Assembly (NCBI GenBank): GCA_020073545.1 | Contig: JAIQEZ010000036.1 | Location: forward strand, 1 to 36,933 | DNA length: 36,933 nucleotides | Reading direction: 5' to 3' | DNA from: Terriglobia bacterium | Lineage (GTDB): Bacteria > Acidobacteriota > Terriglobia > UBA7540 | Shown: positions 3,664-31,214 of the stretch, piece by piece | Layout of the letters: each line of letters opens with the position of its first letter | How positions within the stretch are numbered: position 1 is the first letter of the stretch | Notes under the pieces: generated by a model | The model's input: the letters and a program-made list of their open reading frames with translations, nothing else | Database searches by the model: none | Told to the model about the DNA's origin: nothing | Translations under genes and position numbers: made by a program

Positions 3664-5751
3664 CTAAACCGGGACTTTATCTTCCTCCGGCGTCGGGGTG
3701 GCGCCGATCTGCACGAGGGCCGGCTGGGGGTTCTTGAGGACCAATTCCTCATAAACCTGCCGCGCTTGCGCGGCCTGTTGGGCTTCCCAGGCCGCTTTGC
3801 GGCGAGCTTTTTCTTCCTCGGCGGCGGTGAGGGGAACATCGTGCTCAAGCTTGCGCACGCGCGCGGCGTCCGCGGCATTCACCGTAAGCGAATGCTGGGT
3901 GGAATCCAATTCCACGCTCTTGCCCTTGGCGTAAATTTGGTGCTTGCCGTGGGTCTTATACCACTCGGCCACCGTGGCGTTCTTGTACATGTTCTCGATG
4001 ATCTTCCGCCAGCCGATGCCCGTGTTGTACGCGCAGAAGGATATCTCGCCCAGTTGGGTTGCGTACGGGATAATGCACATCTCGGTGCGGCGGAAGTCGT
4101 AGTTGAACAGATCCTGGAACCACATGCCGGCGATGAAGAGCAGGTTCCAGGGATCGGAGCGGCGCTTGAGAGCGTCTTCGAGCGTGCGGTCGGGGTCTGA
4201 GGCGCCGTACTTCTTCCGCGTCCGTTCCTCGCCCGAGAGCGCAAACGACTTGTCAAACTTCTTGATCAGATCCATCAAGGCCAGGCTCCTGGGCGCCTTG
4301 AAGGGCCGGTAGTTCTTCAGGATGGCCAGGGCCAACATGCCGTTCGAGAACCATTTCCCGCGCGCCGCGTCGGTAATCCGCCTTACATCCTTCACCAGGC
4401 CCGGGACATGCAGGAATTGCGGCACGGGCGCCCATTCCTTGGTTTCCTTGTTGATCATCAGCGCGGTGCCCACGCCGCAGTTGGGGTGGCAACCGCAACT
4501 CACCATGCCCCACTGCGCCTCCGGGCCCTTGACCAGATCCGCAAAGTCCGCGAAGCTGCTGAACAACGAGAGGGGGAACCAGTCGCGCGTGGGCTCGGTG
4601 ATGCCGGTTTGCTTTTTGACGTCATGCGCGAGATGCGCGAGCGTGTAACGCTGGCGCAGGCGGCGCTGCGGGGTGATGTCCTCATCGCGCCCGGTAAAGG
4701 AAACGGGCTGGAAGGCGACAAAAGCGATCTTCTTGGGATTCTCGCGCGCGAAGTTCACGATGGGACCCACCTGGTCGTTGTTGACGTTATTTACGAGGGT
4801 GATGACCAGGATGATCTCAATGCCGGCCTCGTGCATGTTCTCAATGGCGCGCAGCTTCACGTCGAACAGATTGCCGACCTGGCGATGGCCGTTGGCGTCG
4901 TTGCCGATACCGTCGAATTGCAGGTAGGCGTAGCGCAGGCCGGCCTCGAAGGCGCGCCGGCAGAAATCCTTACTCTTCGCGAACTCGATGCCGTTCGTCG
5001 CCGCCTGCACGCTGTTGTAGCCGAGCTGGCGCGCGTAGCGGATCGCGTCAACGAAGTACGGCGACATGGTCGGCTCGCCGCCCGAGAACTGCACCGACAT
5101 CTGCCGTCGCGGTTTGATCTTGGTGGCGTTGTCGAGAATTTCCTTGATCTCTTCCCAGGAAAGTTGGTGGACAAAGCCCACCTGGTTGGCGTCCATGAAG
5201 CAGGGGTCGCACATCATGTTGCAGCGGTTGGTTAGGTCCACCGTCAGCACCGAACCGCGCCCGTGCTTGATGGAGCTCGACCCATGATTGTGCAGGCCCT
5301 CGTCGTTGTGGGCGCGGATATCGCGGCCTGGAAAGTTTTGTTCGATCCACTTCAGGAAGCTGGAGTCGACGGCCATCATGTCTTCGAAGCGCCCATGGAG
5401 GGGGCAATCCTTCACCATCCAGACCTGGCCGTCCCGCTCGAGGATGGTGGCCTTGACTTCACCGGTCTTCTCGGTGAGCAGCGACTGCCAATTCTCTTCA
5501 CCATTCAGAATCTTGGCGCGCGCTTCCTTTACGCACTCCGGGCAGAGCGAGTCGGTCTGGCGAGGCCAGCCCAGCGGCGGCTTGGTCTTCTCCCAGGATT
5601 TCAGGAGTGGCTTATCCGACCATTTGGGAGTGAAAGTTGGACCGGGCCGGTACTTGTTGAAGAATTGAATGGTGTCGAACAGAACCGTGGCCGTCGAACA
5701 AACGGCCTGATCGACGTACTTCATGAGCCGCTGACCTTTGATTCTCGGCAT
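3664..5751 (-). CDS. Radical SAM enzyme, COG1964 / tetraether-synthase-like
   Basis: A 695-residue radical SAM protein. The SAM-cluster motif CxxxCxxC is at C177, C181 and C184, followed by GGEP at 224-227. An N-terminal cysteine pair CPEC (70-73) and CPLHG (116-120) precede the core. A further cysteine cluster CGCHPNC (419-425) and C559 and C573 (in ISFCAYN) follow it. This layout is that of COG1964, the group containing MJ0619 and the archaeal tetraether synthase Tes, which joins lipid tails through unactivated carbons. At 695 residues it is longer than archaeal Tes (about 500), with a lysine- and alanine-rich C-terminal tail (about 640-695). The start at 5751 has GAGAGG upstream. It appears monocistronic with its own terminator. 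The radical SAM call is firm; the lipid-coupling role is an inference. Confidence 0.88.
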   Translation of the reverse strand: MPRIKGQRLMKYVDQAVCSTATVLFDTIQFFNKYRPGPTFTPKWSDKPLLKSWEKTKPPLGWPRQTDSLCPECVKEARAKILNGEENWQSLLTEKTGEVKATILERDGQVWMVKDCPLHGRFEDMMAVDSSFLKWIEQNFPGRDIRAHNDEGLHNHGSSSIKHGRGSVLTVDLTNRCNMMCDPCFMDANQVGFVHQLSWEEIKEILDNATKIKPRRQMSVQFSGGEPTMSPYFVDAIRYARQLGYNSVQAATNGIEFAKSKDFCRRAFEAGLRYAYLQFDGIGNDANGHRQVGNLFDVKLRAIENMHEAGIEIILVITLVNNVNNDQVGPIVNFARENPKKIAFVAFQPVSFTGRDEDITPQRRLRQRYTLAHLAHDVKKQTGITEPTRDWFPLSLFSSFADFADLVKGPEAQWGMVSCGCHPNCGVGTALMINKETKEWAPVPQFLHVPGLVKDVRRITDAARGKWFSNGMLALAILKNYRPFKAPRSLALMDLIKKFDKSFALSGEERTRKKYGASDPDRTLEDALKRRSDPWNLLFIAGMWFQDLFNYDFRRTEMCIIPYATQLGEISFCAYNTGIGWRKIIENMYKNATVAEWYKTHGKHQIYAKGKSVELDSTQHSLTVNAADAARVRKLEHDVPLTAAEEEKARRKAAWEAQQAAQARQVYEELVLKNPQPALVQIGATPTPEEDKVPV

Positions 5752-28169: not shown

Positions 28170-28177
28170 CCGCGGCG
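28170..28177. repeat. Left copy of 8-bp target-site duplication
   Basis: CCGCGGCG immediately precedes the left terminal inverted repeat and is repeated exactly at 31207-31214 after the right one. IS1-family elements usually make 8-9 bp duplications. Confidence 0.85.
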
Positions 28178-28196
28178 GGTAGTGTCCTAGTTTGAA
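28178..28196. repeat. Left terminal inverted repeat of the IS1-like element
   Basis: GGTAGTGTCCTAGTTTGAA, identical over 19 nt to the reverse complement of the right end (31188-31206). Weaker similarity continues inward for about 10 nt. Confidence 0.92.
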
Positions 28197-28251
28197 ATTT
28201 TTAGATGATTTTGTCGCTTGTACCCGCCCTCGGGGCGTGGCACATGGGGCC

Positions 28252-28347
28252 ATGCCGAAGAAGCCCGCCAAGCGAAAGTCACGGGAAGACACAAACCAGA
28301 TTGCCTACCGAGTGATGCAAGAGGTAATTAGGCGAAGCGAGGCATAG
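28252..28347 (+). CDS. 31-residue Lys/Arg-rich ORF at the left end of the element
   Basis: It begins MPKKPAKRKSREDTNQIAYR and continues as a short amphipathic helix, ending at 28347, the base before the convergent DUF3467-like stop. The basic N-terminus followed by a REDxNQxA-like helix reads like a conserved micro-protein rather than random sequence, but I know no function. No strong ribosome binding site is seen; GGGGCC precedes it. Confidence 0.4.
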   Translation: MPKKPAKRKSREDTNQIAYRVMQEVIRRSEA

Positions 28348-28704
28348 CTAGGAAATTCGATCTGGGGGTATGATTATACGGGCTTTATCACTGGATTGAA
28401 TATCCCTGAGCTTCCCAAATTGCTTTTCATATGATTCAACGTACTTATGCAAATTGTCAGCAAGAAGCTTTAGGGTTTCTGGCGTCATGATTACAGATAA
28501 GAGCCGTCTATCCACGATTTCGGTAGGACTTGTTGGAAATGTCTCGATCATATACATCCTAACGTCGAGCGGCCCCAAAACAATTTGAAAGCCGTTGGCG
28601 TATAGCTGTGGAACCATCGGTGCATTTTCGGCACGCCTTACGACCCCCGGGGTTCCCGCGACAACGGACACCGCATCTTGCTCAACTTGTTTCTTTTTTG
28701 GCAT
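28348..28704 (-). CDS. DUF3467-like small protein
   Basis: A 118-residue protein. The central region (YANGFQIVLGPLDVRMYM, then VIMTPETLKLLADNLHKYV and ESYEKQFGKL) fits the DUF3467 pattern: an N-terminal YAN motif, a beta-rich core, and a C-terminal helix ending in YExxFG. Function of the family is unknown. The start at 28704 is preferred because GAGGAG lies 9 nt upstream; the ATG at 28713 directly abuts that box. It is 21 nt downstream of the antitoxin gene, so it is probably the third gene of the toxin-antitoxin operon. Confidence 0.68.
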   Translation of the reverse strand: MPKKKQVEQDAVSVVAGTPGVVRRAENAPMVPQLYANGFQIVLGPLDVRMYMIETFPTSPTEIVDRRLLSVIMTPETLKLLADNLHKYVESYEKQFGKLRDIQSSDKARIIIPPDRIS

Positions 28705-28725
28705 GAGATTCATCTCCTCTGGAAA

Positions 28726-29400
28726 CTATATTGTCGGCAATTCCCGTGTTATAGCAGGAGCATTAATGGCCGCCTCGCGACCTGGCAAGAGTTTGGTCTT
28801 TGCTAGCAACTCAAGATTATAAGTAGTATCTAAAGAGTTAATGACCGCGCCTTGCCCCATCAAACATGAAATCCAATCGTACTCTTTCCCTGTAACGTCC
28901 GGGATGGCACCCAACAAGATGTTGTTTCCCAACAAGTGATAAAGTGTTTTCCCACCTGTCACGAGATAGGGTGGTTGTTCAGTAGGCTGATTCTGCACGT
29001 TCCCCGCGATGAACGAGTCCTTCTCTAAGGGAAGTCTTTCAAGGGACTGCCTATCGAAAGTATCTATTTCATGGGGAAGAGTCCCGAATTCTTCAAACGA
29101 TACTTTTAGCCGCAAATGAAACGCCTGCGCCAAACGCCAAAGCGTACTGATACTCCAAGATGAGTAATTCACATCCTCCATGACCGCAATCCGGGGCTGC
29201 TTCATTCCGGCTTCGTCGGCTAACTGACCTTGCGTCCATTCGCGTTGCTCGCGAATAACCTTGATCTGGGTCGCGATATAGGCATTCAACGCACTGCGAG
29301 CATAAGCGTCGGCATAGTCACGGTCCCTAAACGACTTCCGCAAGCGCTCGGTTGTTGTCGGCCCGTTGGAAAGCACCGGATTATCAGAAGTCGGTGTCAT
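28726..29400 (-). CDS. XRE-family antitoxin/regulator with long C-terminal extension
   Basis: A 224-residue protein. After a leader containing RDYADAYARSALNAYIATQI comes a helix-turn-helix (about 45-90: WTQGQLADEAGMKQPRIAVME). This resembles HigA-type antitoxins, which bind the toxin and repress the operon. The further about 110 residues, which include an NNILLGAIPDVTGKEYDW segment, are unusual: HigA proteins are commonly about 100 residues. The start at 29400 follows AGGAGG by 8 nt and overlaps the upstream toxin gene by 17 nt. The toxin-before-antitoxin order is that of higBA. Confidence 0.75.
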   Translation of the reverse strand: MTPTSDNPVLSNGPTTTERLRKSFRDRDYADAYARSALNAYIATQIKVIREQREWTQGQLADEAGMKQPRIAVMEDVNYSSWSISTLWRLAQAFHLRLKVSFEEFGTLPHEIDTFDRQSLERLPLEKDSFIAGNVQNQPTEQPPYLVTGGKTLYHLLGNNILLGAIPDVTGKEYDWISCLMGQGAVINSLDTTYNLELLAKTKLLPGREAAINAPAITRELPTI

Positions 29401-29773
29401 GCCTTCGCCTCCTATTCGAATCACCAATGATGATTTTGCGGTTGGCTTCAGCTCTTCCTGGGGCATCTATTGGGTCGAGATTGCCGCCCCGCTCTACGCA
29501 CCCAAGCAGGAACGTGTATTCAACATCGTTTTTGATTGGGCATTTGCACAGCATGGGACGGAGTTGGACCCGCCCCTTTACTTTCAGCTTGTAAATGTGC
29601 CCGTCAATCGGACCCGCAAGTAACTGCGGCGGCAGTGTGCCTGCTTGGCGTAGCAGGTCTACCTTTTGGTTCAAAATTGCTATCGCTGCCTTTTGAATTT
29701 TCGCGCGTCGAATCCACTCGACAATGATTCCACTTCCGCGATGGTCCAAAAACTCGTATATGTCCCAAGGCAT
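29384..29773 (-). CDS. HigB/Gp49-like toxin of the RelE/ParE superfamily
   Basis: A 129-residue protein. The pattern YEFLDHRGSGIIVEWI, a helical pair with LLRQAGTLPPQLLAGPIDGH, then IYKLKVKGRVQLRPML and a late EYTFLLGC strand, fits phage-derived Gp49-like/HigB toxins. These cleave ribosome-bound mRNA. The canonical basic residues are partly kept (the R in VQLRPML), but the usual lysine-rich end after the last strand is replaced by ERGGNLDP, so activity is uncertain. A TATAAT (plus 29790-29795) lies 17 nt before the ATG, giving a very short leader with no clear ribosome binding site. Confidence 0.68.
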   Translation of the reverse strand: MPWDIYEFLDHRGSGIIVEWIRRAKIQKAAIAILNQKVDLLRQAGTLPPQLLAGPIDGHIYKLKVKGRVQLRPMLCKCPIKNDVEYTFLLGCVERGGNLDPIDAPGRAEANRKIIIGDSNRRRRHDTDF

Positions 29774-29789
29774 AGAATATCACGAAATT

Positions 29790-29795
29790 ATTATA
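29790..29795 (-). promoter_or_regulatory. -10 box of the toxin-antitoxin operon
   Basis: TATAAT on the minus strand lies 17 nt before the toxin ATG. No good -35 hexamer is at the right distance, which suggests an activator or an extended context. The predicted mRNA would be nearly leaderless. Confidence 0.4.
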
Positions 29796-29827
29796 AGGCA
29801 AGCAGGTTCCTTCCTTGATTTCTTCTC

Positions 29828-29843
29828 ATAATAATATTATTAT
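29828..29843. promoter_or_regulatory. 16-bp AT palindrome, candidate operator
   Basis: The perfect palindrome ATAATAATATTATTAT lies about 55 nt upstream of the toxin gene. It overlaps a plus-strand promoter-like pair, TTGATT (29815-29820) and TATTAT (29838-29843) with a 17-nt spacer, that could drive the tRNA-like gene. It could be the XRE regulator's operator, controlling both directions. Confidence 0.45.
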
Positions 29844-29924
29844 ACTGCCCGAGGATCATGAAAATTGCGCCAGAAATTCGATGCCGTGGACCACCCATCA
29901 AGCAAGGCAACCTTGGGGATGGCA

Positions 29925-29954
29925 CAGGGGAGCAGTCGATTAGATGCTCCCCTG
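29925..29954 (+). other. 10-bp hairpin directly 5' of the tRNA-like gene
   Basis: Perfect stem CAGGGGAGCA / TGCTCCCCTG with a 10-nt loop, ending 7 nt before the tRNA-like sequence. There is no T-tract. It could be a processing signal or part of one structured RNA together with the tRNA. Confidence 0.6.
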
Positions 29955-29961
29955 CTCTCTG

Positions 29962-30037
29962 GTGCCCCCGTAGCTCAGTAGGAAAGAGCGGCCCCATGCT
30001 AAGGGGAGGGCCGACAGTTCGAACCTGTCCGGGGCAC
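29962..30037 (+). tRNA. tRNA-like gene, anticodon GCU, short variable arm
   Basis: Visible parts are the U8-A9 equivalent, D-stem GCTC/GAGC with loop AGTAGGAAA, anticodon arm CCCC-ATGCTAA-GGGG (anticodon GCT, 29998-30000), a 5-nt variable loop, and T-arm GACAG-TTCGAAC-CTGTC. The ends GTGCCCC and GGGGCAC pair perfectly, but with canonical D-arm spacing the acceptor stem needs a bulged C (29969), and 27-43 is a G-A mismatch. GCU would decode serine AGC/AGU codons, yet serine tRNAs have long variable arms. No CCA is encoded. It may be a divergent functional tRNA, a tRNA decoy or a decaying copy. Confidence 0.6.
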
Positions 30038-30042
30038 TAGTA

Positions 30043-30213
30043 TCATTGGGATGCTTGCTTGGCCTTTTCCTTTGCCCAACGCGCTTGAACAGCTTTTCTT
30101 GCGCTTTCAGTACGCTCTTCGGCTGTCATCTTTGCGGCCCTTGCGGGTCCACCTTTCTTCCCGCCCCTTCGGCCTAGGGCCACAGCATAAGGGTTTTTCC
30201 GTTTATTTGCCAT
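30043..30213 (-). CDS. 56-residue basic protein of the GRRGGKKGG...ARWAK type
   Basis: MANKRKNPYAVALGRRGG opens it, followed by a Gly/Lys-rich segment and the helix ERTESARKAVQARWAKEK. Small proteins with a G-R/K-GG-x-x-GG-x-ARA motif and a C-terminal ARWAK helix are widespread in bacteria and have no assigned function; the charge suggests nucleic-acid binding. The start at 30213 has GGAG immediately upstream and a TATAAT (plus 30221-30226) just before that. It is transcribed divergently from the transposase. Confidence 0.62.
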   Translation of the reverse strand: MANKRKNPYAVALGRRGGKKGGPARAAKMTAEERTESARKAVQARWAKEKAKQASQ

Positions 30214-30233
30214 ACTCCATATTATACATGACC

Positions 30234-30318
30234 GCTCTTGTGTCATACGCAAGCGGTCACGTATATCTATGAAAGGAGGGCAAATATAGCTCTTGACACA
30301 TACGTGAGCGCGCACGTA
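30234..30318. promoter_or_regulatory. Two 30-nt direct repeats in the divergent transposase promoter
   Basis: Copies at 30234-30263 and 30289-30318 agree at 23 of 30 positions (core GCTCTTG, CATACG, AGCG, CACGTA) with a 55-bp period. The second copy contains TTGACA (30293-30298), the probable transposase -35, and the near-palindrome TACGTGAGCGCGCACGTA. The layout suggests two operators controlling the transposase and possibly the divergent small gene. Confidence 0.5.
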
Positions 30319-30345
30319 CCACGTGTTTCTAAGTTAGGAGATGCC

Positions 30346-31197
30346 ATGAACGGACTGACCCGCGAAAAACAAGCTCAAATCATATCGGCGCTGATTGAAG
30401 GAAACTCTATTCGCGCTACTTCCCGCAGGTTTGGAGTATCGAAGGATACCGTGTTAAAACTCCAAGTCGAAGCAGGCTATGCAGGCGCCGATTATCAGGA
30501 TAAGACTTTCCGTGGCCTGACTTGCAAGCGCGTGCAATGCGACGAAGTGTGGGCCTTCTGCTACGCCAAGGAAAAGAACGTTCCGGCAGACAAGAAAGGG
30601 AAATTCGGATTCGGTGACGTGTGGACCTGGACCGCAATTGACGCGCAAACAAAATTGATTCCCTCTTTCACAATCGGCAATCGTGATACTGCTAGCGCCC
30701 GCATTCTGATTGACGATTTAGCTGGTCGGCTCAAGAATCGCATTCAACTGACAACCGATGGATTAAAGGTATATCTTGAGGCTATTGAGGGTGCCTTCGG
30801 TTGCGAGATCGATTACGCTATGCTCGTTAAGACCTACGAATCAAGCCAAGAGGAAACACGCTACAGCCCGGCTGTTTGTACCTCCTGCGAGCGCAAGCCG
30901 GTCATGGGGAAGCCCGATCCTGACCATATTTCGAGTTCCTATGTCGAACGCTCGAATTTGAGTATCAGAATGGAGACTCGGAGATTTACCCGGTTGACCA
31001 ACGCTTTCAGCAAGAAAGTTGAGAATCATGCGGCTGCCGTGGCGCTCTACTTCATGCACTATAATTTCTGCCGGGCGCATCAGACGTTGCGGGGGACTCC
31101 GGCCATGGAAGCCAAGCTCGCGGACCATATTTGGACAATTGAAGAGATGCTTGGGGCAATTGGATTGCCAAATGGAACATTTGAGAATTCAAACTAG
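30346..31197 (+). CDS. IS1-family-like DDE transposase
   Basis: A 283-residue transposase. An N-terminal helix-turn-helix (about 18-42: IRATSRRFGVSKDTVLKL) precedes an RNase H-like core with the probable DDE triad D66 (QCDEVWAF), D138 (TTDGLKVY) and E201 (SYVERSNL). The C-terminal HYNFCRAHQTLRGTPA is typical of the longer, single-frame IS1-like group; no frameshift is needed. AGGAG lies 5 nt before the ATG at 30346. The reading frame is intact and ends inside the right inverted repeat, so the element looks potentially active. Confidence 0.92.
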   Translation: MNGLTREKQAQIISALIEGNSIRATSRRFGVSKDTVLKLQVEAGYAGADYQDKTFRGLTCKRVQCDEVWAFCYAKEKNVPADKKGKFGFGDVWTWTAIDAQTKLIPSFTIGNRDTASARILIDDLAGRLKNRIQLTTDGLKVYLEAIEGAFGCEIDYAMLVKTYESSQEETRYSPAVCTSCERKPVMGKPDPDHISSSYVERSNLSIRMETRRFTRLTNAFSKKVENHAAAVALYFMHYNFCRAHQTLRGTPAMEAKLADHIWTIEEMLGAIGLPNGTFENSN

Positions 31198-31206
31198 GAC
31201 ACTACC
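31188..31206. repeat. Right terminal inverted repeat of the IS1-like element
   Basis: TTCAAACTAGGACACTACC, the exact inverse of the left end. The transposase stop TAG (31195-31197) lies within it. Confidence 0.92.
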
Positions 31207-31214
31207 CCGCGGCG
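31207..31214. repeat. Right copy of 8-bp target-site duplication
   Basis: CCGCGGCG, identical to 28170-28177. Confidence 0.85.

Follow-up and report, generated by a model that had tools for sequence, protein, structure and literature searches.

The DNA analysed here, a 36,933-nt contig of Terriglobia bacterium (the window throughout), contains an IS1-like transposon whose cargo includes a tRNA gene with an arginine-type body and the anticodon GCU. We put the chances at about even that this feature is a mobile missense (mistranslating) tRNA. Judged by their sequences, tRNAs of this kind form a recurring class: body and anticodon disagree in the tRNA cargo of transposons from at least two unrelated families. 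A broader proposal is that at least two unrelated transposon families and some phages repeatedly carry identity-swapped tRNAs, both missense and nonsense suppressors, as cargo under selection, and that in the IS1-like elements a 5' hairpin acts as their partner RNA. This proposal seems to us evenly balanced between right and wrong.

The transposon is intact, and it and its contents are as follows (window positions).

28178..31206, no strand: IS1-like transposon, 3029 bp, with matching terminal inverted repeats (TIR) and an 8-bp target site duplication (TSD)
28252..28347, plus: small ORF (31 aa) immediately within the left end, motif xREDTNQIAxRVMQEVI, common to element L045
28348..28713, minus: DUF3467 cargo gene (Pfam 4.8e-10)
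28726..29466, minus: helix-turn-helix (HTH; XRE/HipB-like) cargo gene, 246 aa (Pfam HTH_37/HTH_3; HipB-like match below the NCBIfam cut-off)
29384..29773, minus: cargo ORF of 129 aa, from the ORF list, no family match
29815..29843, plus: promoter-like site TTGATT-17-TATTAT, 5' of the hairpin and tRNA (a consensus match only, 9/12)
29925..29954, plus: 10-bp hairpin CAGGGGAGCA/TGCTCCCCTG, ending 7 nt before the tRNA
29962..30038, plus: class I tRNA gene, anticodon GCU, Arg-type body (A20, C35, U36), from ARAGORN, Rfam, the R1 model and the closest tRNAs
30043..30213, minus: small basic cargo protein, 56 aa, with homologues in 39 of 64 related elements
30346..31197, plus: transposase, 283 aa (Pfam DDE_Tnp_IS1, 2e-6, over the cut-off)

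A perfect terminal inverted repeat, GGTAGTGTCCTAGTTTGAA, stands at both ends of the element. Perfect inverted arms of 20 nt lie at 28177-28196 and 31188-31207, and the 8-bp TSD CCGCGGCG occupies 28170-28177 and 31207-31214. These arms and duplications enclose 29962-30038, which bears out the placement of the tRNA inside a transposon in the initial annotation. Both hallmarks of the IS1 family are present, an IS1-type DDE transposase (the Pfam DDE_Tnp_IS1 match is over its cut-off) and TIRs with a TSD of 8-9 bp. The best NCBIfam match of the transposase was transpos_IS1 (3e-13; 50 bits, below the cut-off of 100), and its GenBank plasmid relatives are annotated as IS1 family. The element thus resembles IS1 family insertion sequences with passenger genes in its DDE_Tnp_IS1 domain, short TIR and 8-bp TSD; no description of tRNA cargo in that family was found in the literature searched. 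Searches of Pfam, NCBIfam and PADLOC gave no match for the 129-aa ORF or for the 56-aa protein, which shares with its homologues the motif KNPxAVALGRxGGxKGG...ARW. Adjacency to the HTH gene is what suggests that the 129-aa ORF is possibly the toxin partner of that gene. Two other transposase copies in the same genome (one at 67%, with stops, and one at 56%) carry no tRNA.

The tRNA gene is real, though somewhat irregular. ARAGORN labelled 29962-30038 on the plus strand tRNA-Ser(GCT), the sole tRNA called in the window, and the only Rfam match in the window was to tRNA at 29964-30036 (45.7 bits, E 9e-7); the R1 model scored the gene at 72.3 bits. Pairing is perfect in the 4-bp D stem and the 5-bp T stem. 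The anticodon stem consists of 4 bp and a G.A mismatch (27-43), its loop reads AUGCUAA, and the variable loop has 5 nt. The GCU anticodon on a class I shape without a long arm, pointed out previously, is therefore confirmed. So is the observation that the acceptor pairs only with an offset or a bulged C, since two registers were found: GUGCCCC/GGGGCAC, which leaves two additional bases 5' of the D stem, and UGCCCC(C)G/CGGGGCA, a 7-bp stem with a bulged C. Position 73 is C or U depending on the register, and the usual A/G discriminator seems to be lacking. Among the 49 Rfam tRNA matches of the same genome, 44 outscore this one. Because of the acceptor bulge or extra bases, the 27-43 mismatch and the unusual discriminator, the window copy may be weak and may be a poor substrate for ArgRS or EF-Tu.

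Several results point to arginine identity. The best BLAST matches of the window tRNA in 297 genomes of the phylum were tRNA-Arg(CCU), at up to 80%. Bacterial ArgRS reads mainly A20, C35 and U36, and all three bases are present. In a reference set drawn from the window's genome and other genomes, A20 occurred in 28 of 30 Arg tRNAs and in 1 of 49 other class I tRNAs. The arginine isoacceptors share A20, C35 and U36 or G36 with the window tRNA and differ from it in that their anticodons read Arg codons, whereas GCU reads AGC/AGU. SerRS needs a long variable arm, and the 5-nt loop does not provide one. Nearest-neighbour typing of bodies was 87.5% correct on the references and leans towards Arg, so A20 and other identity bases were also used; by nearest neighbour alone, the body of L063 was a near tie between Lys and Arg. 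With A20, C35 and U36 kept, no long arm and closest similarity to tRNA-Arg, the window tRNA evidently derives from tRNA-Arg(CCU/UCU), with a change of base 34 from C/U to G giving GCU. It is an additional gene: two normal class II tRNA-Ser(GCU) genes lie elsewhere in the host genome, whose tRNA-Arg genes are ordinary.

Under the missense explanation, the tRNA would be transcribed from its own promoter together with the 5' hairpin, processed by host enzymes and given its CCA end. It would then be charged with arginine by ArgRS and occasionally insert Arg at serine AGC/AGU codons in competition with host tRNA-Ser(GCU), and the element might benefit. Arginine would enter at AGC/AGU because only base 34 has changed while A20, C35 and U36 are kept.

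We surveyed related elements by a transposase scan, which gave 80 loci from genomes and 36 from viral contigs (about 116 IS1-like loci), and detected tRNAs with ARAGORN and a covariance model. Most related elements have a GGTAGTG...CAGTTTGAA-like TIR and an 8-bp TSD, and their ends match those of the window element. Twelve of the approximately 116 loci bear a tRNA or tRNA-like gene, always on the transposase strand (12/12), and body and anticodon are mismatched in 9 of the 12.

Window element, L050, L063 and L070, transposase strand: Arg body, anticodon GCU
L118, transposase strand: Arg body, anticodon ACU
L076:3840-6561 (Lysobacter sp. MAG): Ser body (class II), Arg anticodon UCG
L336:3518-4840 (IMG/VR 3300019880_000009), 1323-bp element: Leu body, anticodon UUA (ochre)
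L342: Glu body, anticodon UGC
L343: Glu body, anticodon AGU
L095: unclear body, anticodon CUG, atypical D-loop and T-loop
L048 and L110: degenerate tRNA-like sequences

The Arg-bodied elements L050, L063, L070 and L118 are from Syntrophaceae, Nitrospirota, Nitrospinota and Acidobacteriaceae. No clearly matched tRNA was found in the IS1-like elements surveyed, and tRNAs in the flanking DNA were almost all ordinary. The L336 element (TSD AATCTCCC) holds little beyond its Leu-bodied ochre (UUA) suppressor tRNA and the transposase; an ORF that starts at its left end crosses the hairpin and the tRNA. In L110, positions 4756-4823 keep an acceptor with G3:U70 and A73 and a T stem, with indistinct D and anticodon arms; G3:U70 (with A73) is the alanine identity signal.

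The tRNA trait is scattered on the transposase tree: its 12 carriers require 11 changes, of which supported branches force at least 9. A single origin of the tRNA was rejected on these counts, which imply repeated gain or loss of the cargo. The closest elements, L043, L044 and L045 (transposase 77-86% identical), are without a tRNA; together with the scattered trait this indicates that the tRNA is dispensable for transposition.

A second family, IS1595, is unrelated to the IS1-like elements and carries Pro (UGG) or Ala (UGC) anticodons on Leu or Ser bodies.

L317, L318/L366, L367, IS1595: Leu body, anticodon UGG
L368, L369, IS1595: Leu body, anticodon UGC
L370, IS1595: Ser body, anticodon UGG
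L317:5645-7690 and L318:5891-7933: IS1595 transposase, Leu-body tRNA(UGG) and NYN-domain nuclease

The window's own genome contributes two of these: additional "tRNA-Pro(UGG)" genes, in fact class II tRNAs with a Leu body, each with an IS1595-type transposase on one side and an NYN-domain gene on the other. Between the two copies the anticodon is unchanged, although paired substitutions separate them in the anticodon stem, the variable arm and the T stem. Larger stretches around L367 and L370 (L396 and L399) show an element, delimited by TIR and TSD, that encloses the tRNA. A stem-loop in the 5' region or leader of the NYN gene (L317, L318), GGGCCTTGGAAGCCC, copies the tRNA anticodon arm; a search of the viral contigs found no relatives of the NYN gene.

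Two tRNA types were searched for in 396 genomes of the phylum, and neither turned up on a chromosome except in or beside transposons. The pattern for an Arg body with GCU or ACU (R34) matched once, in the window, and the Leu-body UGG pattern three times, always beside IS1595 transposases. The first type recurs in viruses, where 26 contigs (L124-L149) have class I tRNAs with GCU or ACU and A20; only one class I GCU/ACU tRNA of the viral contigs had another base at 20. These viral tRNAs are mostly isolated, and several have a 12-18 bp hairpin right upstream. Thus some phages share with the transposons the carriage of this type on mobile DNA, whereas most phage tRNAs with the Arg body have a matched anticodon, the normal CCU/UCU giving at least 120 matches in viral contigs. 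Misreading of AGC/AGU was one of three options raised by the initial annotation, beside a decoy and a structural signal. It is the best supported of the three, given the arginine identity, the recurrence in related transposons and the 26 viral contigs, with transcription, charging and decoding as the steps that we infer.

Compensatory change in related elements, proposed earlier as a check, was found. We aligned 16 Arg-body GCU/ACU tRNAs, 5 from transposons and 11 viral, selected in part with a search pattern that constrained the D arm, anticodon and some of the T loop and left the acceptor, anticodon and T stems free. In this set 93.1% of cells pair, both sides changed in 17 of 21 pairs, and covariation was 0.690, compared with at most 0.22 in slid controls and 0.174 in shuffles; relatedness inflates the shuffle controls, and the slid controls are far lower too. 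C35, U36, U33 and A37 are invariant in the set, partly as imposed by the search pattern. By this measure folds and anticodons are preserved, the stems covarying while the anticodon stays.

If charging matters, swap-tolerant bodies should predominate, and most of the bodies found do tolerate the swap: Leu and Ser, where the anticodon is not read, and Arg with C35/U36 kept. LeuRS does not read the anticodon. Nor does SerRS (PMC7609411, PMC11415595), so charging of the Leu- and Ser-bodied swapped tRNAs should survive. The Glu-bodied tRNAs of L342 and L343 are probably not charged by GluRS; that of L343 could be a Thr acceptor. Recoding of the elements' own genes was considered and rejected. AGY codons in the IS1-like transposases sit where homologues have Ser/Thr/Ala or no conserved residue, and they include the invariant Ser174 and Ser222. 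Recoding checks were likewise negative for TAA/TAG (L336), ACY (L343), GCR (L342), CGN (L076), CCN/GCN (IS1595) and the cargo ORFs. With no recoding in the element genes, any mistranslation would act on the host or on competing elements, and at low frequency, in competition with normal tRNAs.

A possible but doubtful alternative is that hairpin and tRNA fold form a structural RNA module in which decoding is irrelevant and RNase P/Z processing, or the fold itself, would insulate the transposase from read-through transcription or tune its expression. The hairpin and tRNA of the window fold together at -58.7 kcal/mol (z -3.35). A strong stem of about 10-15 bp ends 5-31 nt 5' of the tRNA in 11 of 12 IS1-like carriers, against 3 of 30 host tRNA genes in the same test (Fisher 9e-7), and a phage hairpin lies within 100 nt, at any distance, in 10 of 23 GCU/ACU tRNAs versus 15 of 111 normal ones (p 0.002). 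The tRNA, on the transposase strand in all 12 carriers, stands just upstream of the transposase in 10, and in L048 and L110 the acceptor and T stem persist although the remaining arms have degenerated, all as a structural module would have it. However, the tRNA is downstream of the transposase in L050 and L118, and the IS1595 tRNA elements have mixed orientation and no significant hairpin. Furthermore, anticodon stems, U33 and A37 are mostly kept and GCU recurs with different stems, more than a signal made by the fold alone would require, and for most bodies the synthetase would tolerate the swap. Two specific functions of the hairpin were tried and rejected. For T-box-like pairing between the anticodon loop and the upstream hairpin, the longest matches were no better than permuted ones (p 0.32); for a terminator, the T run is absent in most transposons, though the hairpins of L050 and some phages are terminator-like.

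We consider it unlikely that the tRNA is a decoy or antitoxin against a tRNA-cleaving toxin of the same element or the host. The window element does have the HTH gene with its possible toxin partner, and in L317 and L318 an NYN-domain nuclease lies beside the tRNA, its leader bearing the anticodon-arm copy. Most carriers, however, have no recognisable nuclease, L336 has no cargo protein except a small ORF, and ACU, AGU and UUA mimic no host tRNA; to our knowledge these are not normal bacterial anticodons. A captured host tRNA now decaying as a relic is quite unlikely. The acceptor bulge, the 27-43 mismatch and a score among the lower ones in the genome fit decay, and the relic test implied by the initial annotation gave a divided answer: the nearest elements, L043-L045, lack the tRNA, but distant ones have it in the same place with intact, covarying stems. 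Random capture would also predict ordinary body-anticodon pairs, of which the elements surveyed held no clear case. Finally, a true serine tRNA charged by SerRS despite its short arm, as the GCU anticodon might suggest, is highly improbable given the absent long arm, A20, the tRNA-Arg relatives and the two class II tRNA-Ser(GCU) genes already in the host.

The missense reading has precedents. In E. coli, the mutA/mutC missense glycine tRNAs reportedly arose by anticodon change with charging kept and alter cell physiology; they resemble the window tRNA in that an anticodon change yields a missense tRNA, and differ in being laboratory mutants rather than mobile cargo. The closest known group is the allo-tRNAs of Acidobacteria and Proteobacteria, in which body and anticodon disagree across many anticodons and Ser or Ala is inserted at foreign codons (Mukai et al. 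2017, as described in PMC7609411). The same source describes an irregular Edaphobacter C40 allo-tRNA(UAU) overlapping a transposon-related ORF and suggests a link of allo-tRNAs to transposable elements (PMC7609411). Irregular allo-tRNAs, as described there, share with the window tRNA a G-1 base and extra nucleotides between the acceptor and D stem, and an anticodon that disagrees with body identity. Allo-tRNAs are characterised in that text by an 8/4 or 9/3 acceptor domain and Ser/Sec-like long arms, whereas the window tRNA is class I, with a 5-bp T stem, a 5-nt variable loop and Arg identity, and related element tRNAs have ordinary Leu, Ser or Glu bodies. Thus the element tRNAs are not allo-tRNAs by structure. 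Streptomyces tRNA-ProX/ProRSx provides natural tRNAs with disagreeing body and anticodon that were shown to mistranslate, with both toxicity and a stress benefit in E. coli (PMC10365949). These have a Pro body, an Ala/Asn/Thr anticodon and a dedicated adjoining ProRSx, and are not described there as transposon cargo; the window element, in contrast, has no synthetase gene. No systematic linkage to defined IS1-like or IS1595 elements was found in the literature searched. Within that literature, a systematic association of two transposon families with identity-swapped tRNAs of canonical shape appears to be new.

Annotation by anticodon alone names these swapped genes "tRNA-Ser", "tRNA-Pro" or "tRNA-Ala" and so hides them. 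They offer natural portable suppressor tRNAs, such as the Leu ochre tRNA in a 1.3-kb element. A few bacteria are known to have mistranslating tRNAs; a link to transposons would account for the source of such tRNAs and for their spread, and would suggest a selfish or regulatory role open to testing. Mobile DNA may thereby spread tools for mistranslating the genetic code.
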